Source: Halomarina oriensis
Lineage (GTDB): Archaea > Halobacteriota > Halobacteria > Halobacteriales > Haloarculaceae
Assembly: GCF_009791395.1 (NCBI RefSeq)
Contig: NZ_WSZK01000015.1
Span: 620,001 to 684,000, forward strand
Direction: 5' to 3'
DNA length: 64,000 bases
A program made the translations under genes and the position numbers. The notes beneath the pieces are model-generated. The model was given only the letters and a program-made list of their open reading frames with translations. It was not told the origin of the DNA and did no database searches. Below are positions 21,485 through 61,284 of this stretch, in pieces. Position 1 is the first letter of the stretch. Every line of letters begins with the position of its first letter.

Positions 21485-21573
21485 GGTCGAACGGAGGCGG
21501 CGACGACGGCTGTCTCCACCGGTGGCGGCAAGCAGCGTGTGTGGCCACCGCCGACGCCTCGACGCGGGCGGAG

Positions 21574-21580
21574 CTATTTC
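21574..21580 (+). promoter_or_regulatory. TATA-like element, probable original promoter of the SDR gene
   Basis: CTATTTC lies 25-31 bp upstream of the ATG inside the left attachment core at 21605. If the provirus were removed, this spacing would make it a leaderless promoter for the short-chain dehydrogenase now at 63775. At present it faces the integrase leader. Confidence 0.5.
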
Positions 21581-21604
21581 ACCCCCCGCCGCGTCGCGGG
21601 GGGT
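21581..21604. repeat. Perfect GC hairpin abutting the left attachment core
   Basis: ACCCCCCGC (21581-21589) pairs with GCGGGGGGT (21596-21604) around a 6-base loop. The 9-bp palindrome ends exactly at the first base of the attachment core. It could be an operator between TATA and start of the interrupted SDR gene, or an integrase arm site. Confidence 0.5.
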
Positions 21605-21620
21605 ATGGCCGACATATCCG
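21605..21620. other. attL, left attachment site
   Basis: The core atggccgacat (21605-21615) is identical to 63775-63785, followed by one mismatch and tccg in both copies. The sequences diverge immediately on both sides. It lies 45 bp upstream of the integrase start, the usual place for an attachment site. Confidence 0.7.
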
Positions 21621-21630
21621 GGACATTACG

Positions 21631-21638
21631 ACTATTAT
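21631..21638 (+). promoter_or_regulatory. TATA box of the integrase gene
   Basis: ACTATTAT is centred about 26 bp before the ATG at 21661, inside viral DNA. The virus thus carries its own leaderless integrase promoter and does not need the host side. Confidence 0.6.
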
Positions 21639-21660
21639 CCCAGCGTTCTTCGGCAGTTCC

Positions 21661-22980
21661 ATGGTCGACGTGAACGAGCCGACCCGCATCGCCCATCGGC
21701 TCAATCGGAGTTGGGAGCTTCTCGAGGACGCCGACATCAACGACCGAGACCGCGACGCCATCCGGGCGTTCGTCACGTGGCGTCGCGACTCGAAGGGATT
21801 GGCTCGGAACACGCTTCGCAGCGACATCTCTAATCTGAAGTGCTCGGCCGAGCGAGCGGCCGTCCCGCTGCTCGACATGGGTCTCGAAGACGTCGAGCGA
21901 CTGTTCTCGACGCTCGTCGCCCCGAGCGATGCCGGCGGGTACGGGCTCTCCCGTGACGGCTCTGCCATCTTCGGCTATTCGCGCACGCTGCGGCTGTTCT
22001 TCCGCTATCTCGATGGCCGTGATTCCTACGACGCCTATGCGTTCCATGATGACATCGAACTCCCGGAGGTCGAGGTCCGAGGGGCCTCTAATCGTGATGC
22101 GATGCTGACCGGCGAGGAGATCGAGGCGATCAAAGACGCCACGACGAACGCTCGCGATCGCGCGCTCGTCTCGCTCCTGGGCGACATCGGCGGGCGAATC
22201 GGACTCGTGCTCTCGCTTCGCGTCGGTGACGTCCACCTCGACGGTGACGAGCCGTATCTGACGCCGAACACCGACGTCGAAGACGGCCTGAAGGATCTGA
22301 GCCTGGAGGCCATCCCGATTCTCCACTCCCGAGCAGACCTGCGGGCGTGGCTTCGCCACCCGCATCCCGCGCCCGACATGGACGAGGCACCGCTCTGGGC
22401 GATTCGTCGCGGCTTCGACCGAGACGAAGCTCAGCAGTGTGCGCTGAGCGACTCGCGAGCGCGCAACCTCATCCGTGACGCAGCCGAGCGCGCCGGCGTC
22501 AAGAAACCGACCGACCCGCACAACTTCCGGCGGACGGCGGCGACGCGGCTGAGCAACTCCGACCGACTCACGCCCCAGGAGATCCAGTCGATCACCGGCT
22601 GGAAGTCCTCGACGCTGAGCGAGATGATCGACGTCTACGACTACACGAGCGACGCCGAGCGCGCCTCGGCCATCCATCAGGCGCTCGGGTTCAGCGCTGG
22701 CACTGAAGACGACGAGAACGCTCTCACGCTCGAATCCCTTCCGTGTGGGACGTGCCGCGAGACGGTTTCGACGAGCGCTGACTACTGTCCGAACTGCGGA
22801 GCGCCCCAGGACGAGGTCGCTCGGAAAGTGAAAGACACCGCCGAGAACGAAGCTGTCGAAGACATCGCGAGCGCCGAGACGGACATCGAGCGCCTGCTCG
22901 GCCAGGCGGTGTTCGAGCGTGTCAAGAACGACCCCGAAGCGCTCGAAACGGTCAAAGACGAGCTGGGTATCGACGTCTAA
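21661..22980 (+). CDS. int: Tyrosine recombinase (integrase) with C-terminal zinc ribbon
   Basis: 439 residues. The N-terminal SAM-like core-binding domain (about 5-125) precedes the catalytic domain. That domain shows Arg179 (GGRIGLVLSLRVGD), the HxxR box H287-N-F-R290, Trp314 at the second His/Trp position (ITGWKSS) and the nucleophile Tyr326 or Tyr328 (EMIDVYDYTS). A four-cysteine ribbon (C362, C365, C376, C379) and a helical tail follow, as in many haloarchaeal integrases. The start at 21661 is set by the TATA spacing; an upstream in-frame extension crosses the attachment core and hairpin and is unlikely. It should integrate and excise the provirus. Confidence 0.93.
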   Translation: MVDVNEPTRIAHRLNRSWELLEDADINDRDRDAIRAFVTWRRDSKGLARNTLRSDISNLKCSAERAAVPLLDMGLEDVERLFSTLVAPSDAGGYGLSRDGSAIFGYSRTLRLFFRYLDGRDSYDAYAFHDDIELPEVEVRGASNRDAMLTGEEIEAIKDATTNARDRALVSLLGDIGGRIGLVLSLRVGDVHLDGDEPYLTPNTDVEDGLKDLSLEAIPILHSRADLRAWLRHPHPAPDMDEAPLWAIRRGFDRDEAQQCALSDSRARNLIRDAAERAGVKKPTDPHNFRRTAATRLSNSDRLTPQEIQSITGWKSSTLSEMIDVYDYTSDAERASAIHQALGFSAGTEDDENALTLESLPCGTCRETVSTSADYCPNCGAPQDEVARKVKDTAENEAVEDIASAETDIERLLGQAVFERVKNDPEALETVKDELGIDV

Positions 22981-23970: not shown

Positions 23971-24723
23971 TCAGTCCCTCTGAATCCGCGGTGCGATCAT
24001 GTACTGGGCTGTGCAGTCCTCGCTCGGGTCGAATGTCAGCCGGAGCGGGTGGTCGTCCTTGAGTTGGATCCGAACGTCGACGTCCTTCGTGATGGGCTTC
24101 AACACCGCCTGGAAGTAATCCAGCGAGAGGAGCGTCGTCCCTCCAGCCTCGTACGCGGAGACGGCGATGAGGTCCTCGCGGTCGATGGCGATGTCCATGT
24201 CGTCGGTATCGCCCTGCGCGGTCACGGTGAACTGCTCGTCGAGCGTGTCGAAGCCGAGCGTGATGTGGTCGTTCTCGTCGAGGTTGTCCGCGGCCGTGCC
24301 CGCGGTCAGCAGCGTCCGCCCGTCGACGACGAACTCGCTGTCGTCGATATCAGTGAACGTCGGCTCGTCGCGAATCGCTTCGGGGTCGATGAGTGCGAGC
24401 GAGTAGTCGACGACGCCCGCGGTGATGTCCAGCTTCCGCGTCTCCTCGTTCAGGTCGAGGTAGACCAGTTCGTCACTGCTGGCGACGCTCAGCATGTCCT
24501 TGAGCTTGCCCAGGTTCACGGCAATCGTCTCGCCGTCGGCCTCGTAGCTCTCGAACGCCCCGGCGTCGAGGTTCGCGTCGACACAGGCGACCGTCGCTGG
24601 GTCGGCCATCGTCGAGCGGATGCCTTCCGCGCCGAGGTGGAATCGCGCTTCGTCGACGAGCGGGTCGAGCAGCGCGAGGTAGTCGCTGATAGTCTGCTTC
24701 GTGCAGATGGCCGAGAACGTCAT
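23971..24723 (-). CDS. pcn: Viral PCNA sliding clamp
   Basis: 250 residues, the normal archaeal PCNA length. The start FSAICTKQTISDYLALLDPLVDEARFHLGAEGI and the linker-domain pattern VNLGKLKDMLSVASSDELVYLDL match the two-domain clamp. The C-terminal APRIQRD replaces the more usual core APKI tail. It would encircle DNA as a trimer and tether polymerase or nuclease. It is ATGA-coupled to the gene upstream. Early placement with an exonuclease suggests the virus reprograms replication with its own clamp. Confidence 0.93.
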   Translation of the reverse strand: MTFSAICTKQTISDYLALLDPLVDEARFHLGAEGIRSTMADPATVACVDANLDAGAFESYEADGETIAVNLGKLKDMLSVASSDELVYLDLNEETRKLDITAGVVDYSLALIDPEAIRDEPTFTDIDDSEFVVDGRTLLTAGTAADNLDENDHITLGFDTLDEQFTVTAQGDTDDMDIAIDREDLIAVSAYEAGGTTLLSLDYFQAVLKPITKDVDVRIQLKDDHPLRLTFDPSEDCTAQYMIAPRIQRD

Positions 24724-38358: not shown

Positions 38359-39888
38359 TTAGAGTGATTTCGTCTCTTGGGCGGTCACGTCGGTCGTCAT
38401 GGTCGCCCCGGCGTAGCTGATCGTTCGCTGGATGACGATGTGGTCGCCGACTGCCCCTTCTAACGGGAACTGAGCGTCGAACACCTCGCCTGCTTGGAGC
38501 GTGTGGGCGTCGGGGCCACGGGCACCAAAGGAGAGCTCCCGTCGGGGTTCATCGCGGTGGCGAAGCTCAGCGTCCCCTCGGTCGCGGGCAGCACGGAACG
38601 TCTGCAGACCGTCGTCCTTGATTCGGTCTTCGCGCCGTCCGTACTCTCGCTGACTCGCTGGCGACTCAACGCGTACGGAGATCGGATACGGGAAGTACGC
38701 CCGATAGGCTGGGACACTGGAGGTGTCCACGCCGATTTCCTGACCGGTTGACCCATCGGATTCGACGATGAGCCACGGGTTCGGCTCAGGGAGTGTGTGC
38801 TTGCTCATCCGGAACGTCGTGAATCCGTCATCGTCGAGGAACTCCGCTGAGATCTGTGTCGGGTCGGTGATGTCCGACTGGGTGTCATCGACGGCGATCG
38901 GCTGGCCACCGTCGTCTTTCTGCAGTCGAACGACGATTCCGTCGGCATCTTCCGAGCGGTCTGCTCGCGTCCACACCTCAATGCGTGCGAGTCGTGACTT
39001 CCGCGTCGAGATGCGGTGCAGGATTCGGTTGGTGTCGGTCACCGTCTGATACGACGAGACAGTCTCCTGAGCGTCGTCAACGGCGAAGTCTGTCCCTCCG
39101 TCGACGCGGATAACGTTCGCGAGGTCGTCGTCGTTGATGCGGACGTTGTGTGTCGTCGCGTCGGCCGGCCCGATCTCCGTCTTGGCGGCGAGGTCAGCCA
39201 GTGGGACGAACGCCAGCGACCGCCCCCGCGAGAACAATACTGCGTCGGCTTTCGCCGCGAGGTCGCCGAGGACGTCAAGCAGGTTCTGACCGTTAGAGAA
39301 CTCGTCAGTGACCGTCTCACAGCGTCCCAATAGTGACCGGTCGATAGCTGGAGCCTCGCGCCGGAGGAGTGTGTTCACGATGGCGGACTCTGCGTTGGGA
39401 TCCTCCTCAGGGAGACAGATGGGGGCGTCCTCGAAGGCGTCGTACACCTGTGCGAAACCACACTTCGCGAATACCCAGTCTTGGCTCTCGATATCGAGTG
39501 TCGCATCTTGTGGGCCGGCCCGTTCTGGCGTCTGACTGCGGACCATGCCCGTCCACAGCGAGCCATATCCACCGAACAGCCCCGACCCGTACGCGTCGGT
39601 GCTGTACGCCCGCTTTCGGTTTGCCGGCGTGTCGGCGATGAACTCGACTCGGTCACCACTCGTAATGTCGCCAGTGTACTGCCCGTCGTCGTTCCCGATG
39701 GTCAGCTGGGCGGTGTCCTTTCGTGCCTGAATCCGCTCGGTGATGTCGATGGCTTCAACGTCGGCATCGGCGACCGTCACATCCGCGTCGGCGAGGTCAT
39801 CCGACTCGTTTCCGGGCTTGAAGACGGCGAGCTGAGCGCCTCGAACCGGAAGGACGCTACTTCGCGGCAGGCTATCTCCGGTGCTCAT
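38359..39888 (-). CDS. Baseplate hub-like tail protein
   Basis: 509 residues. An N-terminal beta domain (IDITERIQARKDTAQLTIGNDDGQYTGDITSGDRVEF) is typical of gp27/late-control-D type hubs. VTDEFSNGQNLLDVLGDLAAKADAVLFSRGRSLAFVPL follows the usual second domain. It should form the ring at the tail tip below the tape measure. ATGA overlap with the gene upstream. Confidence 0.72.
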   Translation of the reverse strand: MSTGDSLPRSSVLPVRGAQLAVFKPGNESDDLADADVTVADADVEAIDITERIQARKDTAQLTIGNDDGQYTGDITSGDRVEFIADTPANRKRAYSTDAYGSGLFGGYGSLWTGMVRSQTPERAGPQDATLDIESQDWVFAKCGFAQVYDAFEDAPICLPEEDPNAESAIVNTLLRREAPAIDRSLLGRCETVTDEFSNGQNLLDVLGDLAAKADAVLFSRGRSLAFVPLADLAAKTEIGPADATTHNVRINDDDLANVIRVDGGTDFAVDDAQETVSSYQTVTDTNRILHRISTRKSRLARIEVWTRADRSEDADGIVVRLQKDDGGQPIAVDDTQSDITDPTQISAEFLDDDGFTTFRMSKHTLPEPNPWLIVESDGSTGQEIGVDTSSVPAYRAYFPYPISVRVESPASQREYGRREDRIKDDGLQTFRAARDRGDAELRHRDEPRRELSFGARGPDAHTLQAGEVFDAQFPLEGAVGDHIVIQRTISYAGATMTTDVTAQETKSL

Positions 39889-41747: not shown

Positions 41748-44700
41748 TCAGGCGCTATCGAAGTTGTCCGCTCGCAGCTCGTCGACGAAGCCACGACCGG
41801 CACGGCGGCCTTCCCGTTCGGAGTTCGCGTGGACGACGACGCGCTTGATATACGTCCCGACGCCACTACCGCTACCGGAGGAGTCCTGCTCGGTGTCGAT
41901 CGGCGGGCGAGCGGTCCGGTTGATGTCCTCCTCGGCGAGGACGTGCTCGTTCTTGTGAAGGCGGACGATGCCGTCCCGGAGGACGCGTCCACCAGAGGCC
42001 ATCCCCGCAATACGGTCGTCGCCACCACGAGCGGCCGACGCCGCACCGGCGGCGTTTCGACTCGCAGCGGCTCGGTAGCTTGATGCGCTCCGCAGCGCGG
42101 ACCGGGCAGTCGAGGCTGCCATGTTGGCCTCTCTCGCGATATCGTTGGCGTATCGAGAGATGGTCGAGAACGCCGACGAGAAGTCGCCAACCATCTGGCC
42201 AGTCTTCGTCGACGTCTCCGAGCGCATCGTCCCCAGCTCACCGGAGAAGTTCGACTGGGCTTGCCCCATCTCTCGACTGACGATGCGGAGGAGGTTAGCG
42301 AACTCTGTGGCGACGTACTTCAGAATCGTCCCCAGCTCGCGCGCCGTCGACGCCGTCATGTTGCCGAACTGTGTGTTGTGCTCACCGTACATCTCTCCGA
42401 GTCGGGTGGACTGCTTGCCCGCAGCCGACCCGTACTTCGAGTTGACGTCACCCGGGAGCGACCAGTTGTTCGTCTCGGTCGACATGCTCGACAGACCGGT
42501 GCTGTGTTCCTGCTTGATCAGCCCCATCTCGCCGGTCATGTTCTGCTTGGCGAGGCTGTATCTCGAGTCCATCTCCGTCGGGAGCGACCAGGCGTTGGTG
42601 TCCGTCGAGATGTTCGACAGCTCCTGCTGGTGGCTTCCGCGGATGCCGTTGAGCTTCTCGCGCTGCTTCTGGGCCGCGCGACCGTACATGTCGGCGAAGC
42701 CCTTGTACATCGCCGACTTCGACGTGTCCTGCTTTGACATCCGGAGGTAGCGCTGGTGCTTGTTCCGGAGCTCGGTGAGCTTCGTCGACTGCTTGTTCAC
42801 CGACTGCTGGTAGGTTGAGGCCGTCGCGTTCGGCAGACCGGACGTCTGCGTCGACTGGACCATCGCCCCGATCGCGCCATCGTGGGCGGTCTGGAGGCGC
42901 GTCGTCCCGGCGTCGACCTTCGCACCGGCCTGCTGGTACATCGTCCCGAAGGCGTTGGGGAGCGACGAGGACCGCGTCGACGTCTCCATGCCGCTCAGCA
43001 TGGACTGCGTCTGCGTCTGCATCCCGTTCATCTCCTGACCGGCGAGCGTCGACGCCTGACCGAACTCAGCGCCGAACGCCGCCGCGATGCCAGACGACTG
43101 GACGTTCTGCTTCTGGCCCTGGAGCGTCCCCCGCTGCTGGGCCTTCATCTGGTTCAGTTGCTGGGCGGTCAGCTGGCCCGCCTTCTGGTATTCGCGGTTG
43201 TATGTCTGCGGGATGGAGGCATTCCGGAGTGCGGCGCGCGCCTTCGACGCGACGTCGACCGTCACGCCGGGGATTCGGTTGAGGACCGACTCGACAGCCG
43301 AGACGGCATCGACAAAGACGCCGGCGAACTGCTCGACGAGCGGCCACGACGTGATCCAGCGAAGGATTCCGTCGAGCGTCCGCTGCCAGAGGCCGTCCAG
43401 CAGGTTCAGCGCCGTGTCGGTGTCTCCCAGCAGCAGCGAGAGCCCGGCGTTGATGACGGTCAGGACCGTGTCGATCCACCACGTGAAGTAGCCGACGATG
43501 GCATCGACCCGTGCGCCGACGAGCTGGCCGAGTGCGGCGAGTGGCGGGCCGGCGACGTTGTAGAGCCATGTGAACGCCGGGCCGACCTTCTGACCGATGA
43601 TGTCGGCGATCAGCCCCAGCTTCTGCATGATGGGGCCGACGTTCCTGTCGATGGTCCCGCTGACCGCGCTGATTGCCCCGTCGACGATGTCCCGAAGCCC
43701 CAGGAAGTTCGTCTTGTAGGCCGCGTACAGCGCGACTGCCGCCGCGATGGCGATGCCGATTGGCCCGGTCAGGACCGTGAACGCCGTTCCGAGCGCTCCG
43801 ACCGCACCGGAGGCGGCGGCCGCCGCCGTCGTCGAGGTCGCCAGTGCGCTGGTGAACGCCCCGACCGCCGTGACGAGTCCGCCGATGAGGCCAGCGACGA
43901 GCGCGATGGTCCCGGCCCAGCCATCGGTCTTCTCGTTGATGTCGCCCAGCACCTCGATGCCGCTGTTCAGCGCGAACAGCACGTTCTTCAGGATGGGCAG
44001 GAAGTTCTGCCCCGTCGTCGTCGCGGCGTTCTGGACCTTGTTCTTGAACAGCTGCCACTGTCCGGCGGCTGTCTCGGTCCGAATCGACATCTCGCGAGCA
44101 AGCGATGTCCCGTTCTCGAACTGCCCGGTCGCGGTTTCGAGTGCCTTGTTCGTTCGCTCGGCGTTGCTCCCGAGTTTCGAGAACGCTCGGGCCGCACGGG
44201 TTCCGAGAGCGACCTGGAGGTCGGTCGCCTTCTCACCACCCTCGGCCATGCCAGCGGCGATGCGCTGCATCAGGCCGTACGGGTCCGACGAGCGGAGGTT
44301 CTTGAACTCGGTCGTCGTCATGCCGAGCGCCCCGGAGACGTCGCCCACCTTCTTCGGGTCGAGCATCGCCTCGGCCGCTCGCTTCAGGTCGCCAGCCGCG
44401 AGGCGACTCGACGCGCTCACTTCGTTCATCGACGCCGATAGCGCGAGCGTCTCCTCAGCGCCCAGCCCCAGCCGTTGGGACAGGACGTTCGATGCTCGGA
44501 CTGCCGAGTCGGAGATCTCCCCGGCGTCGGTCTTGAACGAGTCGGCGAGCGCGTTCGTCGCGTTCCCCAGCTTCTCGATTTCGCCGTAGGGGAGCCCGAC
44601 CGCGCCTGCAATCTTCGCGAAGCGTGTGCCAGCTTCTTCGGCGGCGAGGTCGGTCGCCGCGCCGATCTGCCCGACCGTCTCGACGAACTTCGAGATGTTC

Positions 44701-45050
44701 TCCGAGCCCTCGATACCGAACTTCCCCGCCTGCTCGGCGAGCGTGACGAGCTCCCGTCGTGGGATGGGGATCGTCTCAGCGAGGCTCATCAGCTCGCCCT
44801 CGAGTTCGCGAGCGACATCGGCCGACGTCACCTTCTGGACGTCCGCCATGGCGGCCTCGAACTCGTAGGCAGAGCGCGTTGCCGCCGCGATACCACCCGC
44901 CGCGACGGCGGCGAGTGCGAGGCCCATCCCGCCGATGGCCTCCCGCACGCCGAGGGCGGACATCTTCAGCCCATCCAGGTCACCGGCGAGGTCGGCCGCT
45001 CCGCTACCACCCTCGACTGCGACTTGGAGACGCTCTGCGTTGATAGCCAT
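41748..45050 (-). CDS. Tail tape measure protein
   Basis: 1100 residues. The N-terminal 330 residues match TP901-type tape measures (AYEFEAAMADVQKVTSADVARELEGEL, LGAEETLALSASMNEVSASSRLAAGDLKRAAEAML). Hydrophobic segments follow at about 375-440. Residues about 621-914 carry seven 42-residue repeats. The end is Arg/Ala-rich and coiled. As a ruler of 1.5 A per residue it predicts a tail near 165 nm (inference). It directly follows the tail chaperone frameshift cassette. Confidence 0.9.
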   Translation of the reverse strand: MAINAERLQVAVEGGSGAADLAGDLDGLKMSALGVREAIGGMGLALAAVAAGGIAAATRSAYEFEAAMADVQKVTSADVARELEGELMSLAETIPIPRRELVTLAEQAGKFGIEGSENISKFVETVGQIGAATDLAAEEAGTRFAKIAGAVGLPYGEIEKLGNATNALADSFKTDAGEISDSAVRASNVLSQRLGLGAEETLALSASMNEVSASSRLAAGDLKRAAEAMLDPKKVGDVSGALGMTTTEFKNLRSSDPYGLMQRIAAGMAEGGEKATDLQVALGTRAARAFSKLGSNAERTNKALETATGQFENGTSLAREMSIRTETAAGQWQLFKNKVQNAATTTGQNFLPILKNVLFALNSGIEVLGDINEKTDGWAGTIALVAGLIGGLVTAVGAFTSALATSTTAAAAASGAVGALGTAFTVLTGPIGIAIAAAVALYAAYKTNFLGLRDIVDGAISAVSGTIDRNVGPIMQKLGLIADIIGQKVGPAFTWLYNVAGPPLAALGQLVGARVDAIVGYFTWWIDTVLTVINAGLSLLLGDTDTALNLLDGLWQRTLDGILRWITSWPLVEQFAGVFVDAVSAVESVLNRIPGVTVDVASKARAALRNASIPQTYNREYQKAGQLTAQQLNQMKAQQRGTLQGQKQNVQSSGIAAAFGAEFGQASTLAGQEMNGMQTQTQSMLSGMETSTRSSSLPNAFGTMYQQAGAKVDAGTTRLQTAHDGAIGAMVQSTQTSGLPNATASTYQQSVNKQSTKLTELRNKHQRYLRMSKQDTSKSAMYKGFADMYGRAAQKQREKLNGIRGSHQQELSNISTDTNAWSLPTEMDSRYSLAKQNMTGEMGLIKQEHSTGLSSMSTETNNWSLPGDVNSKYGSAAGKQSTRLGEMYGEHNTQFGNMTASTARELGTILKYVATEFANLLRIVSREMGQAQSNFSGELGTMRSETSTKTGQMVGDFSSAFSTISRYANDIAREANMAASTARSALRSASSYRAAASRNAAGAASAARGGDDRIAGMASGGRVLRDGIVRLHKNEHVLAEEDINRTARPPIDTEQDSSGSGSGVGTYIKRVVVHANSEREGRRAGRGFVDELRADNFDSA
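42309..43190 (-). repeat. Seven 126-bp (42-residue) repeats inside the tape measure gene
   Basis: A Tyr or Phe anchor followed by x-x-Ala recurs exactly every 126 bp at 43190, 43064, 42938, 42812, 42686, 42560 and 42434 (reverse strand). A downstream (S/T)xLP element is found in most units, sometimes preceded by Trp. Confidence 0.8.
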
Positions 45051-45093: not shown

Positions 45094-45914
45094 TCAGTTC
45101 GACCGCTGTGTGGCGGTCCGCCGCTTCTCCTCGACGAACTCGCGCCACGCCTTCTGGTCGCCAGACGTGACGTGTTGGCCCGGCTTCGGGCCCTGATTGG
45201 ACTGCTGCTGCCCGCGATTCGGCCCGAAGTGCTTCTGGAACAGCTCGAAGCCCTTCCAGAGCATCTTCTCCTCTTCTGGCGTCAGCTCACCCAGCGGGCG
45301 GTCGGTGAACTGGTAGTGGCACTTGTGATGCAGGAAGTACGCACTGAGACAGGCGTCTTCGTAGCGCGACAGGTCGCTCAGTTCGCCCGTTTCGAGCGAC
45401 GGACCCGCTACTTTCCCTCGTCGTCTCCGCCGAGGCTCTGCAGTTCGTCGAGGCGCTTCAGCCGGTCCATCTCCTCATCGGAGATATCGCCGCGTGGGTA
45501 GCGCCGGAGCCGGTCGACGATCTCGTCGAGGTCCGACACCAGGAGAATGCCGTACAGGAGACCGTCTTCCATCGCCGGGTCGAGTTCCTCGGCGACGAGC
45601 CGCTCGGTCACCTCTCCCTCGTCGTTGGTGAGATCGGGCTCGACGAGGTGGGACTCGTAGAGGTCGGCGAGTTGCGCATCAGAGATGTCCTCGCCGCTGA
45701 GTAGCGGCATGATCCACTGCTCGCGGGCGTTCTTCGTCAGCCGGCGGGCCTTGACGTACCCATCGAGTTCCTCGACGTACTGCTTCTCGGGGAGGACGTT
45801 CCCTTCTTGGTCACGAGAGACAGTGACGTCAGCGACGCTGACCATCCCCGCGTCTTCAGGTGGCGATTCGTCGGGCTGTGCTTCGGACTCGTCAGTGTTG
45901 GATGTGGTTGCCAT
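45094..45914 (-). CDS. Tail assembly chaperone, -1 frameshift product
   Basis: Reading the 168-residue upstream frame and slipping back one base at GGGAAAG (45411-45417) adds 105 residues ending at the TGA 45094-45096. The added part starts VAGPSLETGELSDLSRYEDA and ends EFVEEKRRTATQRSN. It has no start codon of its own and keeps good protein composition (YFLHHKCHYQF, MLWKGFELFQKHFG). The total is 273 residues. This is the gpG/gpGT arrangement of phage lambda between tail tube and tape measure. Confidence 0.85.
45373..45417 (-). promoter_or_regulatory. Programmed -1 frameshift signal
   Basis: The heptamer G GGA AAG is in the correct X XXY YYZ phase at 45417-45411, directly before the TAG of the short frame. 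Ten bases further on, GTCGCTC (45400-45394) can pair perfectly with GAGCGAC (45379-45373) to form a stimulating hairpin. Confidence 0.8.
45408..45914 (-). CDS. Tail assembly chaperone, short form
   Basis: 168 residues, acidic, from MATTSNTDESEAQ. Helical core VEELDGYVKARRLTKNAREQWIMPLLSGEDISDAQLADL. It ends at TAG 45408-45410 when no frameshift occurs. In tailed phages this short form is made in excess and coats the tape measure during tail assembly. Confidence 0.8.
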   Translation of the reverse strand: MATTSNTDESEAQPDESPPEDAGMVSVADVTVSRDQEGNVLPEKQYVEELDGYVKARRLTKNAREQWIMPLLSGEDISDAQLADLYESHLVEPDLTNDEGEVTERLVAEELDPAMEDGLLYGILLVSDLDEIVDRLRRYPRGDISDEEMDRLKRLDELQSLGGDDEGK

Positions 45915-45924
45915 CAGGAATCAC

Positions 45925-47283
45925 TCAGTTCGGCCGGAACTCCAGTGCGGCGCTGCCATCGCTCTGCTGTAGACCCGTGAACGTGAGGTCTGTCGTCATG
46001 TACGCTTGGTTCTCCTCCTTGGTGGCGTTCCCACCGCTGGAGATGTACGCTCGCGGCAGGGCGATGTCGCCGCCGGTGAGCGGGATGACCAGTTCGCCCT
46101 CCGCGCCCTGGAGGTGATCGGAGAGCTTGTCGTTGGTCTGGGTCTCGCCGAACACCGTCGACTCTGCCTGGACGTTTCGGCCGTCCTCGTGATGGGACAT
46201 GGCGAGCCCGTCGGTCGTGTTCTCTTCTTCGACCTCGTTCGAGACCGTGAGCGTCGTCGACTGGACGCGCTCGGCGGCAGGGTCACCGAACCACTGCAGT
46301 TTCGACCCGAGGACGAGCTGGGGCTGACCGAGTGAGGAGCCATCATCGAACGACCCCGCGCCGAGCGGCGGGACACCCTCGTCGCCTTCGATGCCGTCGT
46401 AGTCGCTCTTTCCGGGGACGACTGTCAGCAGCTGGCCGGGCTCGCCGGTCTGGTCGACCGACTCGTCGGCGTAGACTTCGAGCGTGCCTTCAAGTTCCGA
46501 GGCTGGGGCGACAACGGCCAGCGAGTCGTACTGGCTGGTGGTGACGACCGACGTTGTCGCGTCGGTCCCATCGAGCGTGATATCCTCGACCGTCTGGCCA
46601 TCGATGGCCTCAACCGTGACTGTCACGCCGGTGTCGCTGGCGTCGGTCGACCGGATGGCGAGATAGGTCGTTGCGTCGGGCTGGTCGATCTGATACTTCC
46701 GGCGCTTGTCGAACGTGTACTGCAGTTCGGCCGTGGCGACGGCGTCTTCGCCTGGGTCGACCGAGATGGACGGCTCAGTAGGGCGGCCGCCGTAGGCGTA
46801 GTCGTACTTGCGGGTGCTGAGGGCGGTCGCCGTCGGTGCGTCTCCCGAAGGATGCGTTCGACCACGGGCGTCGGCGAAGTACTTCGCGTGGACGGTGTTC
46901 GTGGCGATGATACCCGAGAGCTGTTCGACCGCCAGCAGCGAGTGCGTGTTCAGCAGGCGATTGTCGATGTCACGCAGCATCCCGTCTGCGATGGGGTCGA
47001 GCGGGTCGCCCGTGCCGTCGACGGGGAAGCGTTCGAGGTCGTAGCTCAGCGTGACCTCGTGGCTCTCCTGGTTCCGGCGCTTGTCGACGGGGTCGACGTT
47101 GCCGATGCCCGTTCGCTCGCTGTGAGTCGCTTCCGTCTCGGGTTCGAAAGAGTTCTCGACCTTCCCGTAGAGCGTCCAGTCAGGGTCGGCCGGGGTCTGT
47201 GCGTCACCGAACTGGTCGACGACCTCGCGGCAGAAGTAGTAGTTCGTGCGTCGCGAGCCGCCTTCGACGTTGAGTCCTGGCAT
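45925..47283 (-). CDS. Major tail tube protein
   Basis: 452 residues, starting MPGLNVEGGSRRTNYYFCREVVDQFGDA. Beta-rich with LDPIADGMLRDIDNRLLNTHSLLAVEQ in the first part, a long insert (about 200-310) that may be a surface Ig-like domain, and LVIPLTGGDIALPRAYISSGG near the end. Position before the tail chaperone and size fit a tube protein with decoration. Confidence 0.78.
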   Translation of the reverse strand: MPGLNVEGGSRRTNYYFCREVVDQFGDAQTPADPDWTLYGKVENSFEPETEATHSERTGIGNVDPVDKRRNQESHEVTLSYDLERFPVDGTGDPLDPIADGMLRDIDNRLLNTHSLLAVEQLSGIIATNTVHAKYFADARGRTHPSGDAPTATALSTRKYDYAYGGRPTEPSISVDPGEDAVATAELQYTFDKRRKYQIDQPDATTYLAIRSTDASDTGVTVTVEAIDGQTVEDITLDGTDATTSVVTTSQYDSLAVVAPASELEGTLEVYADESVDQTGEPGQLLTVVPGKSDYDGIEGDEGVPPLGAGSFDDGSSLGQPQLVLGSKLQWFGDPAAERVQSTTLTVSNEVEEENTTDGLAMSHHEDGRNVQAESTVFGETQTNDKLSDHLQGAEGELVIPLTGGDIALPRAYISSGGNATKEENQAYMTTDLTFTGLQQSDGSAALEFRPN

Positions 47284-48132: not shown

Positions 48133-48557
48133 CGGTCATCGACCTCGCCGGAGTGCAGCGCTGCACAGCGGACCACGCCGTTGCGTTCGTCGAACATCTG
48201 CGTCACCGTGTAGATGAGACCGCTCTGGGTCTCGATTTCCGAGGGCCACGCCAGATACCGGCCGCCGTCGTCTTCGAGCCCGCCGGACGTCACCAGGACG
48301 TCGTCGGGGAGCAGTATCTCGACGTCGGCGCTCTCTTCGCGACCGGCCGGCCCCTGCTCCGTTTGCGGCGTGGTCGGCTGCTCGACCTGACCGCTCGTCT
48401 GGATCGGGTTGTCGGGGTGGTCGGTTTTCCGGTAGTCGCCCTGCTCGTCCGGTTCGGCCGATTCGACGAAGTTCCGAACCGTCAGCGGCTCTTCGAACCA
48501 GTTGGTGAACGACTCACCCAGCGAGGCCAGGCGGTCGCCCAGTGCGTTACGAGTCAT
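48129..48557 (-). CDS. Head-tail connector (stopper-like)
   Basis: 142 residues, MTRNALGDRLASLGESFTNWFEEPLTVRNF, with a beta barrel-like later part (VEILLPDDVLVTSGGLEDDGGRYLAWPSEIE). Order places it as head-closure or stopper protein. ATGA overlaps on both sides. Confidence 0.55.
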   Translation of the reverse strand: MTRNALGDRLASLGESFTNWFEEPLTVRNFVESAEPDEQGDYRKTDHPDNPIQTSGQVEQPTTPQTEQGPAGREESADVEILLPDDVLVTSGGLEDDGGRYLAWPSEIETQSGLIYTVTQMFDERNGVVRCAALHSGEVDDR

Positions 48558-48940
48558 GCGGAGAACGAAGCCGAGGCGATCGACGCGCCACCTTTCGCCG
48601 GGCGAGCCTCAACGCTCCCCCGGAGGTTGCCGGTGTCGACGGCGTCTTTCTCGGTGAGGATCCCTTTCGCTCGCTTCTCGACGTACAGCGCGATGTCGCG
48701 AACGAGTGCTTCGAGACTGTTCGCCTGGGCGGCGAAGACGTCGAGTTTCCGTGCGGCCTCTTCGAGCGCTGGGCGGAGATACGGACGCGCCGCCATCCGA
48801 CTGGTCCCGAACGCGACGTACACCGCGTACTCGACGTTCGTCCCGATTTCCCAGCTGACGGTGCCGACACCCCAGCGGTCCTTGATGTCGTCGAGCGTCT
48901 CGATGAGGCTCAGGACGCCGGTCATCTCAGCACCTGGCAT
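48554..48940 (-). CDS. HK97 gp10-like head-tail joining protein
   Basis: 128 residues from MPGAEMTGVLSL, preceded by GGAGG nine bases upstream. The signature VEYAVYVAFGTSRMAARPYLRPALEEAARKL is the gp10 hallmark. It joins head and tail. Confidence 0.8.
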   Translation of the reverse strand: MPGAEMTGVLSLIETLDDIKDRWGVGTVSWEIGTNVEYAVYVAFGTSRMAARPYLRPALEEAARKLDVFAAQANSLEALVRDIALYVEKRAKGILTEKDAVDTGNLRGSVEARPAKGGASIASASFSA

Positions 48941-48944
48941 GGCA

Positions 48945-49325
48945 CTACCCCTCCAGCTCCTCGCGGCGAGCTTCGACGGCGTCGCGAACACCCTCGCGCT
49001 CAGCGTGGGCTTCGACCTGATCGAGTTGGTCGTCGACCATCCCGTCGGCGATGTCTTCGGTGACCTCGCTCATCGGTGTCCGGTCGAGGAACCCCTCGAC
49101 GTCGAACGCTTCATCGAGGTCTTCGTCTTGTACGGTGCTCTCTTCGGTTTCGTCTTCAACCGGCTCTGTGAGGGTGAGCACGTCGTACTCGCGGTCGAGC
49201 GCTCTGGCGAGGTCCGCATCGTCGACGGTGACGGTTCCATCGACGACGTCGATGTGCTCGTCTTCGTCGAGCGGATTGCGGACCGCGCCCCACCCATCGA
49301 GTCGGCAGGTGAGTTCGTAGCTCAT
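48945..49325 (-). CDS. Viral head-region protein, unknown
   Basis: 126 acidic residues, with DGTVTVDDADLARALDREYDVLTL early (short strands that resemble a capsid-vertex or connector helper) and a long helix at the end (VEAHAEREGVRDAVEARREELEG). Confidence 0.5.
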   Translation of the reverse strand: MSYELTCRLDGWGAVRNPLDEDEHIDVVDGTVTVDDADLARALDREYDVLTLTEPVEDETEESTVQDEDLDEAFDVEGFLDRTPMSEVTEDIADGMVDDQLDQVEAHAEREGVRDAVEARREELEG

Positions 49326-49722: not shown

Positions 49723-50559
49723 TTAGACGCCGCCCTGGATGAACATCGCCGCGTCCGACTCGGTGGGGACCCAGTCGATGCGGCCACGCTCTTTGTAGAC
49801 CCACTGGTCCTTCTGGTCCTCGCGATAGCGCGAGACCTCGAACGGGTCGCGTTCGGACTCCCAGCCGTACCGGGAGGTGTCGACGACGAACGCCTCGTCA
49901 GCGCCGAGATTGCCAGTGTTCGTCAGCATCGCCGGACGGCCCATGACCTGGCCGATGTTTGGCCCCGTCGAGCGGAGTTCTTCGGCGAACGTCTCGGTGT
50001 CGCTCATGAACTCACTGCTGGTGGCCATGTCACCCCACGCATCTGGCGAGAGGAAGAAGACGAGCGAGTCCGCCGAGAAGCCAGCGTCGACCAGCGCGGT
50101 GTACGCCGCGACCGTCGCCTCGTAGTTGAAGTCGGTCCCGTCGGTCCCGATGACCGTGCCGTTCCGGTTGGCGTCGAGGATGCTGAACGCGATAGCGTCG
50201 AGGCGACGCTGTTCCTCGCGAGCCATCTGCTGCTGGTTGTCCAGCGCGAAGTTGATCTTCGAGTCCTTGATGTCCTCGTCCGTGATGGGGACCTCGAACC
50301 CGTACTTGCTGTAGGCCGCGACCGCGCCGTCGTAGTCGAGCTTCGCGCGGGGGTAGTCTCCGCCTTTCTCGACTTCGACCATCTCGCCCTCGAACGTGCC
50401 GCCCGAGGGGAACTCTACACTGTCAGAGTTGCGCGTGGCGGCCTCCTGGTCGATGCGGAAGGCGTTGCGGAACTGGTACAGTTCCCGCGTCTTCTCCTCC
50501 AGCATCGCCTTGACGTCGGTCGCCGTCGGCACTCCATCGTAGTCGACTTGTGGTGACAT
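49723..50559 (-). CDS. Major capsid protein, HK97 fold
   Basis: 278 residues. The N-arm helix, DVKAMLEEKTRELYQFRNAFRIDQE, precedes an E-loop strand pair and GFEVPITDEDIKDSKINFALDNQQQMAREEQRRLD, the typical spine helix region. The A-domain is DSLVFFLSPDAWGDMATSSEF. No long N-terminal delta domain is present, in line with a separate scaffold. Confidence 0.85.
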   Translation of the reverse strand: MSPQVDYDGVPTATDVKAMLEEKTRELYQFRNAFRIDQEAATRNSDSVEFPSGGTFEGEMVEVEKGGDYPRAKLDYDGAVAAYSKYGFEVPITDEDIKDSKINFALDNQQQMAREEQRRLDAIAFSILDANRNGTVIGTDGTDFNYEATVAAYTALVDAGFSADSLVFFLSPDAWGDMATSSEFMSDTETFAEELRSTGPNIGQVMGRPAMLTNTGNLGADEAFVVDTSRYGWESERDPFEVSRYREDQKDQWVYKERGRIDWVPTESDAAMFIQGGV

Positions 50560-52207: not shown

Positions 52208-53020
52208 TCAGTTGTCGGGCGTCACGGGCAGCCACGCGCACCGACAGCGCGGATGGACTGGAATCACGCCACGCGCCTCGCCGATCGTGTAGCGACTCCC
52301 CCCCAGACTCGCACAGACCGCACAAACGCGCCGGTCCTGCGCGGTGAGGAACTCGACGTCGGCCGTGACCTGCTCGACGCCAGCCTGCTCGTACCGATTG
52401 AGCGTCCCTTCAGCGTGAGCATTGATGACCTCCGTTCGAGCGAGCGTCGTCGCCCGCGTCTTCCCGATCGAGTCGATGCGGTCGGTGAGCTCGGCCGCCA
52501 TCTTCCGCGGGCTGTAGCCCTGGGAGAAGCCCTCGGCGAGCGTGCGGGAGATCTGCTTGGCGACCTCCTCGTTGATGCCCTTCAGCCCCTCGTAGTTACG
52601 CTGGTAGAGCAGTGCAAGGGCGTCCTCGTGAATTGGGGCGTTGAACGCTGCCTGGAGTCCACCCTCCGGGACGTCGAGGCCCTGCTCGTCGAGCGCCGCA
52701 TCGGCGTGGCGAATCGACTTCTCGTACGCCGTCCGGACGTACTCGTTCTCGCCCTGACCGATGGTCTGGAGGACGCCGTTGTCGAGCTGCTGGCGTAGCC
52801 ACGCCATGAATTCCGCGTGCTTCCGGTCGTCCGTCTCGAATCGGTAGCTCGGGATGCGGTCGATGTCGCGAGCGAGCGCCTCACCGTCTGACGAGAGCCC
52901 GAACGCGTCCCGATCACGAACGCCAGCTCTGAGTTCGGTGTTGATTGCAGCGTAGCGCCCCCGGAGCTTCCGAGCGTAGCGCTCGCGAAGAGTTTTCGAT
53001 TGGGTCGGATCGGTCGGCAT
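52208..53020 (-). CDS. MuF/SPP1 gp7-like minor head protein
   Basis: 270 residues. ATTLARTEVINAHAEGTLNRYEQAGVEQV, then DRRVCAVCASLGGSRYTIGEARGVIPVHPRCRCAWLPV, is the MuF signature including its Cys and His residues. It binds the portal and may be ejected with DNA. Confidence 0.88.
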   Translation of the reverse strand: MPTDPTQSKTLRERYARKLRGRYAAINTELRAGVRDRDAFGLSSDGEALARDIDRIPSYRFETDDRKHAEFMAWLRQQLDNGVLQTIGQGENEYVRTAYEKSIRHADAALDEQGLDVPEGGLQAAFNAPIHEDALALLYQRNYEGLKGINEEVAKQISRTLAEGFSQGYSPRKMAAELTDRIDSIGKTRATTLARTEVINAHAEGTLNRYEQAGVEQVTADVEFLTAQDRRVCAVCASLGGSRYTIGEARGVIPVHPRCRCAWLPVTPDN

Positions 53021-53023
53021 CGG

Positions 53024-54529
53024 TCACTCGTCCCCGTCCTCGTCGACGGCCTCACCACCATCGGCGACTGCCTGCTGGCCCTGATTTTGCTGGCCGAACT
53101 GTGCCTGAACCTGCTCGTTGTCCTCGTCGAGCGGTGGAACCGGCTCGACGTCGGGCTCATTCTCTTCTTCGTCGGCGAGCGCTTCCTCTGGGAGCTGGGC
53201 GACGAGGTCGACAAACCGCTCCTCGTCGAAGTGCTTGTGCGCCTTGTTTCCGTAGACGTTCTTCAGCCCCGTCGTGTAGTCGACGAACCGCTGCATCACG
53301 TCGTCGTCCATCGAGCGGATTGGCGACTCATCCTCTTCGGGCTCGATGTGGAGTTGGATGCCAGACGTGTCGTAGCCGTGGGACTCGGCGACGTCGATGA
53401 GCGCTCCCGTGTAGGCCGTCTCCAGCGTGCGCCGGAGGTCACGCACCTGCTTGTCGTAGCGCGTCTCCTGGCGCTCGGTGACGAACTGGTTGATGTTCGA
53501 CTCCCAGCCGACTGCGTACAGCGGCGTCGGGAGTGCCGAGACGATGTACTTGATGTCAAACTCCAGGAAGTCGAGCAGGCCGTCGGCGATTTCACCCTCG
53601 AACTTCTCGAAGGAGATCTCCCCGTCATGGCCGATGATGTCTCCTGGCCCCATCTCCCGGCCAATCTTGTTCTGCAGGAAGTCCTGCTGCTCGTCGTCGT
53701 CCCACTCGTAGATCGTCGTCTCGTTCCCGGCCTCGACGACCTCCCGGCCGAACGCCACACTCCAGATGCCGTGCGCCTTCGACTGGATGGCCAGCTCGTT
53801 GTCCTGCAGTTTCTGTTTCAGCGCGACCGTCCTCCCTTTGACCGGGTGCGTCGCCGAGAGCCCCATGAGCTGACCAGGCAGTGGGTTGCGCGTGATGTCG
53901 GTGACGTCGTTCTGGCTGAGTTTGACGACGTCCTTGTCGGTATACTTCCCGAGGCGGCCGTACGGCGAGGTCTCGTGGTACTGGAGGTACGCTGCTGCCT
54001 CGTTACGCTTGGTCATCGCGACGTCTTCCCCCTCGGCATCTGGTTCGAGGAGGATCGGTCGGTTCTCGCGTGTCTGGAAGGCCACCGACTCGATGGGGAT
54101 GAGCATGAACCCCGTTATCGTCGGCTCGCTGGTGCTCGGGTCCTTCTTGACGTGCTCGGTGAGGACCTTCCCGCCAGCCTCGTGCAGCACTGCCGACTGG
54201 TGGAGTATCTCGCCGAAGTCCTGGTGGCTCTTCCCGGCGACGATGCCCGCGTTCGGGAGGAAATCGTCGTTCAGCCAGTCCTCGGTCTTCGAAGAGTCGG
54301 CCGTGACGCGAGCGCCCGGCTCGACGACGTCGTCGGCGAACTGGGTGTACGCCGCAGCGAGGAGCGGCGTCTCCTGATAGAGTTCGATCTCCTCGCCGAT
54401 GTTCTCCGGGACCGGGATGGTGTCGACCTCTCCCGGTTGGTAGTACACCCCGCCGTTGCGCGTCTTGACCTCCGAGCGCTGGGGGGCCGAGAACAGTGCC
54501 TCTCCGAGTGTACTGAGTGGGTTGCGCAT
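53024..54529 (-). CDS. Portal protein
   Basis: 501 residues. SALPTPLYAVGWESNINQFVTERQETRYDKQVRDLRRTLE lies where the portal clip and stem are, and the protein has a Gln/Glu/Asp-rich tail. It forms the dodecameric DNA gate of the capsid. Located between large terminase and the MuF-like gene. Confidence 0.85.
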   Translation of the reverse strand: MRNPLSTLGEALFSAPQRSEVKTRNGGVYYQPGEVDTIPVPENIGEEIELYQETPLLAAAYTQFADDVVEPGARVTADSSKTEDWLNDDFLPNAGIVAGKSHQDFGEILHQSAVLHEAGGKVLTEHVKKDPSTSEPTITGFMLIPIESVAFQTRENRPILLEPDAEGEDVAMTKRNEAAAYLQYHETSPYGRLGKYTDKDVVKLSQNDVTDITRNPLPGQLMGLSATHPVKGRTVALKQKLQDNELAIQSKAHGIWSVAFGREVVEAGNETTIYEWDDDEQQDFLQNKIGREMGPGDIIGHDGEISFEKFEGEIADGLLDFLEFDIKYIVSALPTPLYAVGWESNINQFVTERQETRYDKQVRDLRRTLETAYTGALIDVAESHGYDTSGIQLHIEPEEDESPIRSMDDDVMQRFVDYTTGLKNVYGNKAHKHFDEERFVDLVAQLPEEALADEEENEPDVEPVPPLDEDNEQVQAQFGQQNQGQQAVADGGEAVDEDGDE

Positions 54530-54535
54530 GGTGAG

Positions 54536-55900
54536 TTACTGCATCTTCCCGGCCGAGCCGGGCGTCCGGCGGGTGACCGTGGTTCGGTTGTCGTGTGAGA
54601 ACAGCGCGTAGCGCTGCGCGTCCATCGCGTGGTCGTTCTGCTTCAGTGGTTTCTCGTCGGTATCGCCGTCTCGGAACTGGTACTGCCCGTACTCGTTGAT
54701 GACCGACTGGCACTGCGTCGCGACGTGGAGATGGTCGCGCATCGAGGTGACATGCTGGATGCCCGGCGTGACGTCGTTCTTCGCCTTCTGGGCGTTCAGC
54801 CCTCGGCGGTTGAACGTCTCGATGTTGGCTGGCTCGGACGGGTCACAGTAGAACACGCCCGGCCCCCAACGCTCCTGAAAGGTCTCCGCAGCCGAAGCGT
54901 GATCGGCGTCCGTACAGCGGCGCTCGTACCACTCGTCGGCAAGGAACCACTCATCACCCTCACGGAGGAACGCCAGCAGGACAGCGGGGTTGTCGAACCC
55001 CCAGTCGACGCCGTAGACGACTTCGTCGTACGTCTCCGGGAGATCGTCGTACTCGACGAGGTTGTCGTCGTCGAACCAGGGGTAGACCAGCCCTTCGAAC
55101 TTGGTGAACTCCCCGCGAACCTCCTGGGCGAAAAACTGTCCGGAGTACTCCCGTTCGAGGCGCTCGATGTAGTCCTCTGGGTTGTGGGGGTTCATCCACG
55201 ACGGGACGCCGAACACGCCGTTGCAGTCGTTGGCGGTCTGCCACTGGTACGCCCCGTCGTAGTGGACGTCCGGGTCGTCGGTGTCGTAGAACCGATTGAA
55301 ACACCAGTTCTTGCCCTTCGGAGTGGTCGCGGCGAACGCGTTACGATACTGGCCGACTCGGAGTCGTCCCGAGCAGACCTCCCAGCCCTCGACGGCGATT
55401 GAGCCGGGCTCGTCCATCCCGAACCAGGCGAGGTTCGGTCCGCGGAGTCGGTCGATCTTCCGCTGGTTGTCGGCCGATTCGAGGATGATGCGCGAGCCAC
55501 TCGGCGTGATGATGCCCGGTCGCTCGCTGCCCGGACCGTTGTACTCACAGACGTCGAGCAAGCCGAGCGCCCGCATCTCTGGGAGGATGACGTTCTTGAT
55601 GCTTGGCCCGGTCGGAGCGACGATCATGCCGAGCTCTCCGGGGTTCCAGTGCTCGGCGTTGATCCACGCTCGAAGGACGAGCGCCGTCGTCTTGCCCGCC
55701 CCCAGTCCAGAGACGAACGCGTGTGTCTGGGCGCCGGACTCGATGTCGCCCATCCCGGCCGGAGCGGCGAGGAATTCTGCCTGTGGAGCGCGGCCCGTCC
55801 CCGGATGGCGGTAGGGAGCGAGGTCGGTCCGCTTGCGCTCACGCTGGAACCGCTCGTGCGTCGCCTGAGGAAAAGCGTCCATCCCAACGCCAGTGCTCAT
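54536..55900 (-). CDS. terL: Terminase large subunit
   Basis: 454 residues. ATPase: GLGAGKTT at 65-72 and Walker B LAWFGMDEP with Asp163-Glu164. RNase H-like nuclease: Asp299 (VYGVDWG), Asp353 (YCDPSEP) and Asp427 (NDHAMDAQRYAL). It packages DNA into proheads. The start overlaps the small subunit stop (ATGA). Confidence 0.93.
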   Translation of the reverse strand: MSTGVGMDAFPQATHERFQRERKRTDLAPYRHPGTGRAPQAEFLAAPAGMGDIESGAQTHAFVSGLGAGKTTALVLRAWINAEHWNPGELGMIVAPTGPSIKNVILPEMRALGLLDVCEYNGPGSERPGIITPSGSRIILESADNQRKIDRLRGPNLAWFGMDEPGSIAVEGWEVCSGRLRVGQYRNAFAATTPKGKNWCFNRFYDTDDPDVHYDGAYQWQTANDCNGVFGVPSWMNPHNPEDYIERLEREYSGQFFAQEVRGEFTKFEGLVYPWFDDDNLVEYDDLPETYDEVVYGVDWGFDNPAVLLAFLREGDEWFLADEWYERRCTDADHASAAETFQERWGPGVFYCDPSEPANIETFNRRGLNAQKAKNDVTPGIQHVTSMRDHLHVATQCQSVINEYGQYQFRDGDTDEKPLKQNDHAMDAQRYALFSHDNRTTVTRRTPGSAGKMQ

Positions 55901-59199: not shown

Positions 59200-61263
59200 T
59201 CAGACCGCCCGGAAGTGTCCCTGGTTCGGTTCGTACACGTCACCCTGATCTTTCAGCTTCTGAATTTCGTGGTCGACGCGGTCCTCGTCGGTGCCCATGT
59301 CGCCGGCAATTTCGTAGACCTTCTCGATGGGCGCTCCGTTGTCGTGTTTCCCCTCCAGGTCACTGATGATGGCCCTGATGGACTTCACCCGCTGACGCTG
59401 GCTCTGGGAGGTCCCCGCCTCGACGATATCGACATCGAGCTCGCCAGTCTCCGGGTCGACGCCCACGTCTTCGAGACACCGGCGATGGATGGCCATCACT
59501 CGCTCGACGTCCGTCCGCGTCACCTCTTCGCGAAGGTGGATGCGGGCGCTCGCCTCCGCGAGTCGGATGATGCCCTCGTTCATCCGCGCCGTGACGGGGA
59601 TGGCCTCATTCTCCGGGTTCGCGCTTCGGAGCGCCACGTACTCGTCGGCGATGAGGTCCATCGCGCCGTCGGTCAGCACTGGCGACAGCGTTCTGGCGTG
59701 GGCGATGAACGCCCGCATGACCTCCTCGTCGATGGCCGGAGTCACGCCGGTCGCGTCGTCTGGCGTTGCGTGCTCGTTCTGCGCGAGTTGCTGGCCGACC
59801 CGGTTCGCACTCGTCTGGTGGCGGGCGACCGCTCGGTCGTGATCTGCGTCCGGCCGGTCGGTCAGCGTGAAGATGAGGTCGAACCGGGAGAGCAACGCCG
59901 GGTCGAGGTCGAACTGCTGGGCCAGGTCGCTGTGGATGTCGAAGCGGCCGTGCTTCGGGTTCGCGGCGGCGAACACCGACGTCTCGGCGGGGAGCGTTGC
60001 GTTGATGCCCGCCTTGTTGATGGAGATCTCCTGGTCGCTCATCGCCTGCAGCATCCCCGCGCGGTCCTCCTCGGCCATGTCGTCGAGCTCGTCGATGGCA
60101 CACAGCCCACCACTCGCTTTCACGAGCGCCCCCGCTTCGAGCGTCCAGCCACCTCCGCCGAAGTCGTCGTTCACCGCCGCGGCCGTCAGACCGGCGGCTG
60201 TGCTCCCGCGACCGGTCGTCGTCACCGACCGCGGCATCAGGTTCGCGGCGTACTTCAGGTGCGTCGACTTGCCCGTCCCCGGGTCGCCGATGATGAGACA
60301 GTGGGAGTTCCCGCGGATGGTACTCCCGTCGGGCAGGCGCTTGTGGACGCCGCCGAACATGATGTAGGCGATAGCCTCCTTGATAAGACGATCGCCCATG
60401 TGCGAGGGATTGATCGAATCGACGATCTGCTCGACTGGATTCGGACTGTTCGCTATCTCGCGGATGCGCTCGATGTGCTCGGCGACGTTGACGTCGCCGA
60501 GGTCGGCGGTCGTCCGCTCGATGGACTCAGCCTCGCCGTACAGTTCGAGCAGCGGCTTCTTCGTCCGCCCGCTCGTCTTCGGGCGCGACTCGATACGGCA
60601 GTTCGCGACGATGCGGTCCCCCGCGACCACCTCGCCGACGAGGTCGTCCGTGAGCGTGATGTCGAACTCCTCGCTCGTCATCCCGTGCGAGCGCTCTGGC
60701 GGCGTCTTCAGCCGGGCGAGTTGGTGGTCGACGCGCTCGGACTGCTGTTTGTTCAGCCGGAAGGGACCCTGTCGCTCACAGCCGTGACACTCGTGGGGGT
60801 CCTGGAGTTCGTCGCCCACCTGCGGCACACGCGTGAGCGTCCCGCAGCGCTGACAGTCGAACGCCGCCTCCTTCAGCAACTCCTGGCGGGCAGAGACCTT
60901 CGTGACCTGCCCGTGGACGCCCTGGAGTCGCCCGTCGACGGCCTTCGGTCGCCACATCCCGACGTCCCAGACCGCGTCCGGTGGCAGGTCGGTGATTCGG
61001 ACGTGTGCTCCGCGCAGGTTGACGTCCACCGGGAGGTCGTACAGCGCGAGCGCTTCCTCGAGCAGCTCCTTCGCCTTCTCCGGTTGGTCGAAGACCATTC
61101 CCGCGACGTCCTCAGCCCCTCTCTCCAAGTCGCGGTAGGACACGGTGAGCGAACGCTGCTCCTGTGGGTAGTGACGGGCGAGCTCTCCGATGGCGTCCTT
61201 GTAGTAGACGCGGTAGAACTCGTCGAGATCATCGACCAGTTCCGCGGAAGCTGCCTCACTCAT
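59200..61263 (-). CDS. mcm: Viral MCM replicative helicase
   Basis: 687 residues from MSEAASAEL, with a GGGGTGG ribosome-site-like run just upstream; a GTG at 61272 is an alternative. Zinc site C137, C140, C159, C162. Walker A GDPGTGKST at 327-335, Walker B IDEL with Asp391-Glu392, arginine finger Arg460 (LLSRFDLIF). The C-terminal winged helix ends at NQGHFRAV. Full length for an archaeal MCM. It would replace host MCM at the viral origin. Confidence 0.95.
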   Translation of the reverse strand: MSEAASAELVDDLDEFYRVYYKDAIGELARHYPQEQRSLTVSYRDLERGAEDVAGMVFDQPEKAKELLEEALALYDLPVDVNLRGAHVRITDLPPDAVWDVGMWRPKAVDGRLQGVHGQVTKVSARQELLKEAAFDCQRCGTLTRVPQVGDELQDPHECHGCERQGPFRLNKQQSERVDHQLARLKTPPERSHGMTSEEFDITLTDDLVGEVVAGDRIVANCRIESRPKTSGRTKKPLLELYGEAESIERTTADLGDVNVAEHIERIREIANSPNPVEQIVDSINPSHMGDRLIKEAIAYIMFGGVHKRLPDGSTIRGNSHCLIIGDPGTGKSTHLKYAANLMPRSVTTTGRGSTAAGLTAAAVNDDFGGGGWTLEAGALVKASGGLCAIDELDDMAEEDRAGMLQAMSDQEISINKAGINATLPAETSVFAAANPKHGRFDIHSDLAQQFDLDPALLSRFDLIFTLTDRPDADHDRAVARHQTSANRVGQQLAQNEHATPDDATGVTPAIDEEVMRAFIAHARTLSPVLTDGAMDLIADEYVALRSANPENEAIPVTARMNEGIIRLAEASARIHLREEVTRTDVERVMAIHRRCLEDVGVDPETGELDVDIVEAGTSQSQRQRVKSIRAIISDLEGKHDNGAPIEKVYEIAGDMGTDEDRVDHEIQKLKDQGDVYEPNQGHFRAV

Positions 61264-61284
61264 CTCGTCCACCCCCCACGAGGC

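Follow-up and report, generated by a model that had tools for sequence, protein, structure and literature searches.

An array of 42-residue tandem units in the tape-measure protein of a Halomarina oriensis provirus

The window analyzed here, a stretch of 64,000 nucleotides from Halomarina oriensis (contig NZ_WSZK01000015.1, positions 620,001 to 684,000), belongs to a 4.07 Mb archaeal genome and contains genes for a terminase, a portal, a Mu-F-like head protein, a major capsid and a neck protein together with a set of tail genes (Table 1). Thirteen tape-measure families of the PHROGs collection match the longest of the tail proteins considered here (best match phrog_28, E 4e-50), and its gene lies after the tube gene and a frameshifted chaperone pair and before the tail-tip genes. 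Judged from this profile match and gene position, the product is the tape-measure protein (TMP) of a siphovirus-like provirus. No match to a tail sheath was found among the proteins scanned, which were a subset of the open reading frames. On either side of the module lie genes for a phage-family integrase, a PCNA-like protein and an MCM helicase.

The chaperone that occupies the position of lambda gpG is a homologue of HrrHc1_110 of the Halorubrum virus Hardycor1 (E 2e-6). A lambda-type slippery heptamer, GGGAAAG, immediately precedes the G stop codon and is in the correct register, and a -1 frameshift there would yield a gpGT-like product; the heptamer is kept in Halomarina rubra and reads GGGAAAT in Hardycor1, for which a similar chaperone frameshift site has already been published (PMC7911831). 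Two other proviruses of the genus, G006 and G001, have an open T frame, but no canonical heptamer was found where G and T overlap. The probable tail tube protein has homologues of the same 452-residue length in three genus-mate proviruses (82%, 68% in G006 and 62% in G001) and a 36% identical homologue in Hardycor1, while a search of solved structures returned no match to it. The probable tail-tip hub protein is 82%, 71% and 65% identical in the same three proviruses. The closest relative that carries the module is H. rubra (G007), which was the sole return from the scan of genome contigs; neither the TMP nor the tube protein found a relative when used to scan viral contigs.

Table 1. Features of the structural module and of the repeat array, in window coordinates
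Feature	Position	Strand	Basis or comment
Phage-family integrase	21541-22977	+	
PCNA-like protein	23971-24723	-	
Probable tail-tip hub protein	38359-39888	-	Conserved neighbour for comparison; name inferred from position
Tape-measure protein (TMP) gene	41748-45050	-	1,100 aa; PHROG tail length tape measure protein match
Seven exact 42-residue units	42309-43190	-	aa 621-914; offset-42 self-match and unit table
Unit 7	42309-42434	-	
Unit 6	42435-42560	-	
Unit 5	42561-42686	-	
Unit 4	42687-42812	-	
Unit 3	42813-42938	-	
Unit 2	42939-43064	-	
Unit 1	43065-43190	-	
Zone of the extra H. rubra 126 bp (one unit)	42450-42665	-	Breakpoint no finer
Eighth, diverged unit, in register	43191-43316	-	aa 579-620; best upstream unit-profile match
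Possible ninth unit, strongly diverged	43317-43442	-	aa 537-578; second-best upstream register
T reading frame, via -1 frameshift	45094-45417	-	On GGGAAAG 45411-45417; gpGT-like product predicted
Tail assembly chaperone, lambda gpG-like position	45408-45914	-	168 aa, acidic; between tube gene and TMP
Probable tail tube protein	45925-47283	-	452 aa; position and genus-mate homologues; name inferred
Neck protein	48554-48991		
Major capsid	49723-50559		
Mu-F-like head protein	52208-53020		
Portal	53024-54529		
Terminase	54536-55900		
MCM helicase	59200-61272	-	

Residues 621-914 of the TMP divide into seven units of exactly 42 residues without a single indel, as an earlier note on this DNA had described. 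When the protein was aligned to itself, the three best offsets were 42, 84 and 126, and the mean BLOSUM62 score at offset 42 (0.71) lay 12 SD above that of shuffled sequences (-0.57 ± 0.11, maximum -0.21; 2,000 shuffles). The anchor [Y/F]xx[A/S] occurs eight times in succession at spacing 42, compared with a longest run of three in 3,000 shuffles. The spacing that had been claimed for seven Y/F-x-x-A anchors is thus correct, but the alanine is not found in all of them, since one anchor carries serine (YQQS, aa 747). Although the seven units themselves stand, seven is an undercount as a total. Residues 579-620 are the best upstream register in both this TMP and that of H. rubra (~4 SD over the local mean), beginning with F579-V-D-A and having I-P at the site of the SLP motif that recurs at the helix break, and residues 537-578, which are the second-best register in both proteins (~3 SD), may form a further unit. 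Past residue 914, the repeat loses its register and becomes fainter. The units are 10-38% identical to each other (mean 21%), and Tandem Repeats Finder detected no DNA-level tandem repeat at the array, which argues that the array is old. Taken together, these data show at least eight copies of a unit of exactly 42 residues, predicted to be helical, in the TMP.

The earlier note had read these 42 residues as six heptads, or about 63 Å of helix, a reading that the internal pattern of the unit does not support. When units from both this TMP and its H. rubra counterpart are averaged, the strongly hydrophobic columns are 1, 12, 15, 23, 26, 35 and 39, such that positions 1/(4), 12/15 and 23/26 are spaced by 11 residues and are followed by 35/39. 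Hydrophobic autocorrelation at lag 11 is significant in both proteins (p 0.0006 here and 0.004 in H. rubra), while lag 7 is significant in neither (p 0.34 and 0.69). Proline is confined to unit position 36, where it occurs in 10 of the 15 units of the two proteins. Single-sequence AlphaFold2 (AF2) prediction of 408 residues was poor (pLDDT 49), and the prediction was therefore repeated on an alignment made by stacking blocks of three units; the single-chain model from four stacked three-unit sequences, which is of low to moderate confidence (pLDDT 73), has helices at 2-32, 36-74 and 79-125, i.e. one helix per unit with predicted breaks at unit positions 33-36. Because of the lag-11 period, the recurrent proline and the predicted breaks, the unit is best read as 11+11+11+9 residues with one probable helix break. 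A Fourier peak at 3.82 residues in the array was rejected as a helix period because it is a harmonic of 42. Foldseek matches to designed antiparallel three-helix bundles (E > 0.1) were treated as non-evidence, as was a search against a viral library that returned nothing useful. Similarity to a solved TMP-like chain, FtbJ (9j1k), is confined to aa 356-599, a hydrophobic region that precedes the array.

The TMP of H. rubra is 1,147 residues long compared with 1,100 here, with exactly 42 of the additional residues in the array and the remaining five near the C-terminus. The alignment of the two proteins has no offset up to approximately residue 800 and an offset of exactly 42 after approximately residue 870; the best amino-acid fit places the breakpoint at aa 796-815 and the best DNA fit near codon 865. 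In H. rubra, the unit at 831 and its neighbour at 873 share 69% identity at the protein level and 73% at the DNA level, while they are 43% and 50% identical, respectively, to the orthologous unit in the window. Since these neighbouring units resemble each other to this degree, the extra unit probably arose by duplication in the H. rubra lineage; a loss here followed by homogenization in H. rubra is the less simple reading. This is the only whole-unit difference that we found between relatives, and it supports the proposal that the array changes length by unit gain or loss. That the spacing is exact and is conserved with this sister provirus also agrees with the earlier claim that spacing is constrained while sequence is loose. 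The H. rubra contig that carries this module also has, close to its end, another TMP-like gene (L060 4383-7160), which is of a more distant type and probably belongs to another provirus.

The period of the TMP does not follow the tube protein. Despite the conserved tubes of G006 and G001, the TMP center consists of 45-residue units in G006 and has mixed 11/18 spacing in G001. Since nearly the same tubes pair with other unit lengths or with none, the unit does not look like a copy of the ring spacing. A survey of 27 TMPs, namely that of phage Hardycor1 and 26 encoded by genomes of the order (the present one included), gave significant long periods of 42, 43, 44, 45, 48, 49 and 51 residues and short ones near 11 and 18, relative to 40 block shuffles per protein, a null against which weak peaks should not be over-read. 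The 1,650-residue TMP of G140 (L046 3690-8642), whose N-terminal part is 45% identical to this TMP, has near-identical 45-residue units and then 48-residue units. The distant tube-protein matches in G030/G413, G409, G421, G019 and G401 could not be used to compare TMPs. G030 and G413 are filed as different species and share an identical 10.5-kb stretch on equally long contigs (L084/L085), so one assembly may contain the other. These results separate two ideas that are usually merged, namely that the tape is built of units and that these units fit the tube.

A by-product of this comparison concerns the total length of the TMP. The N-terminal 412 residues of the G001 (L015 8674-12123) and G006 (L016 7779-11222) proteins are 81% identical without gaps, after which the two are abruptly unrelated until similarity is regained toward the C-terminus; this switch looks like a recombinational exchange of the TMP center. 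The three genus-mates with unrelated centers nevertheless have TMPs of 1147 (H. rubra), 1147 (G006) and 1149 (G001) residues. Three lengths within 2 residues have a probability of 3e-5 by a normal approximation to the surveyed lengths and of 7e-4 when lengths are drawn at random from the 27 surveyed TMPs, the three genus-mates among them, both values being calculated after the fact. This agreement suggests selection on total TMP length in the three genus-mates. Constant length is not a general rule, since G219 and G324 have tubes that are 85% identical and TMPs of 1020 residues (48-residue units) and 867 residues (no array). Tentatively, we picture a ruler without fixed ticks, in which centers of period 42, 45 or 11/18 are exchanged while the total stays within ~2 residues, selection acting on end-to-end length and leaving the period free. 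Constant length over exchanged centers is the most interesting by-product of this analysis and rests on three sequences. With tubes that are nearly alike and tape units that differ, the four related proviruses form a natural experiment on whether length depends on total residues or on unit number.

We consider it very probable that the region is the variable-length segment of the TMP, that whole units add tail length and that 42 is not a dimension of the tube. In this reading, an ancestral helical unit of 42 residues was duplicated in tandem and in frame long ago, each copy comprising three 11-residue helix stretches and nine further residues in which an SxP helix break is usually found. The TMP would occupy the tube lumen in helical form, and tube polymerization would proceed along it until the tape is covered, as is consistent with the coiled-coil TMP that spans the tube rings of the haloarchaeal virus HFTV1 (PMC12494034). 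The net charge of the array (+9 in 294 residues) and that of the tube protein (-49) would fit a positive tape in an acidic lumen. Each unit would add ~6 nm of tail. In TP901-1, TMP deletions shorten the tail in proportion, from 118 nm to 65 nm for 347 residues removed (PMC5099701), and the resulting slope of 0.153 nm per residue gives ~6.4 nm, or 1.5-1.7 rings, for a 42-residue unit. Because the tube adds only whole rings, changes of a single unit would be rounded. We propose that the spacing within the array is exact because only whole-unit duplication would keep every helix, turn and chaperone contact in phase, whereas a partial one would not. Against this arrangement, three antiparallel helices per chain would not obviously fit the tube lumen if the TMP is a trimer or a hexamer. 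Virion descriptions or tail measurements for these proviruses were not found in the literature.

An alternative that we regard as rather unlikely, yet the strongest of those considered, is that the G/GT tail chaperones, which hold the tape until the tube is assembled, would dock on each unit, such that chaperone packing would set the exact spacing. A lambda-type G/GT pair with its shift site is encoded directly upstream of the TMP, chaperone binding has been proposed for the aromatic anchors of TMPs (PMC3271669, PMC5099701), and the chaperone diverges along with the TMP (35-40% identity) while the tube and tail-tip genes stay at 62-71%. However, the N-terminal domain of the TMP is equally diverged, so this co-divergence may only mark a shared recombination block, and alanines in place of a TP901-1 repeat were tolerated with little effect (PMC5099701). 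It is improbable that slippage or unequal recombination in tolerant filler left the units behind as neutral by-products, with no selection on their length or number. While few parts of the TMP evolve as fast as the repeat region (26-60% identical to H. rubra compared with 66-96% for the N-terminal 400 residues), the spacing has outlived divergence to ~21% identity with zero indels in seven or eight units, and total length is equal within 2 residues in the three genus-mates despite unrelated centers. Least probable of all, and contradicted by these comparisons, is the match to tail-tube ring geometry that the earlier note had suggested, under which unit length would be selected to keep TMP-tube contacts in phase, with two units per three rings as one example. 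At 1.5 Å per residue, 42 residues (~63 Å) span 1.47-1.64 rings of 38.5-42.8 Å (PMC8718954), near 3/2 for a 42 Å ring, but the surveyed long periods correspond to 1.5 to 2.0 rings, haloarchaeal periods of 42, 44, 45, 48, 49 and 51 yield no common ratio, the gain of one unit would not correspond to a whole number of rings, and tubes of equal length and 62-68% identity accompany period 45 or 11/18. The 42-residue length thus looks like an accident of lineage, and the unit like a convenient block for adding length.

Duplication of whole units has precedents in other TMPs. Belcaid, Bergeron and Poisson described in 2011 that TMP units of Bacillus and Clostridium prophages are duplicated and lost, including a 44-residue block present in four or three copies (PMC3271669). 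The array described here resembles those TMPs in its in-frame tandem units, its whole-unit difference between relatives (the 42 residues of H. rubra), its 11-residue hydrophobic sub-period and its aromatic markers. It differs in that their units have period 11 or 11-11-18 with W/F at strict spacing, a pattern of [FW] that was not found in this array. Here, position 1 alone is regularly aromatic, Y/F occurring once per unit, and positions 12, 23 and 34 are mostly L/M, L and S/G. The recurrent SxP break, the Q/S/T/N-rich sequence and the archaeal host are further differences. In the lactococcal phages, TP901-1 has 11/18-residue repeats and p2 a 40-residue repeat resolved as 11-11-18 (PMC5099701); compared by description, their repeat regions likewise contribute to tail length, while unit length and aromatic spacing differ. 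Hardycor1 shares with this provirus the N-terminal TMP domain (35%), a similar gene order, a -1 frameshifted chaperone pair and the tube homologue (PMC7911831), but its TMP has 703 residues and no significant long-period array. The HFTV1 TMP, also compared by description, is likewise a haloarchaeal siphovirus-like tape inside the tube, but is hexameric and has 341 residues (PMC12494034). A unit of this length and composition was not found described in the literature consulted on TMP repeats. Unit duplication and loss in TMPs has thus been published for 11-, 40- and 44-residue units, and the array in H. oriensis is a new, archaeal case.
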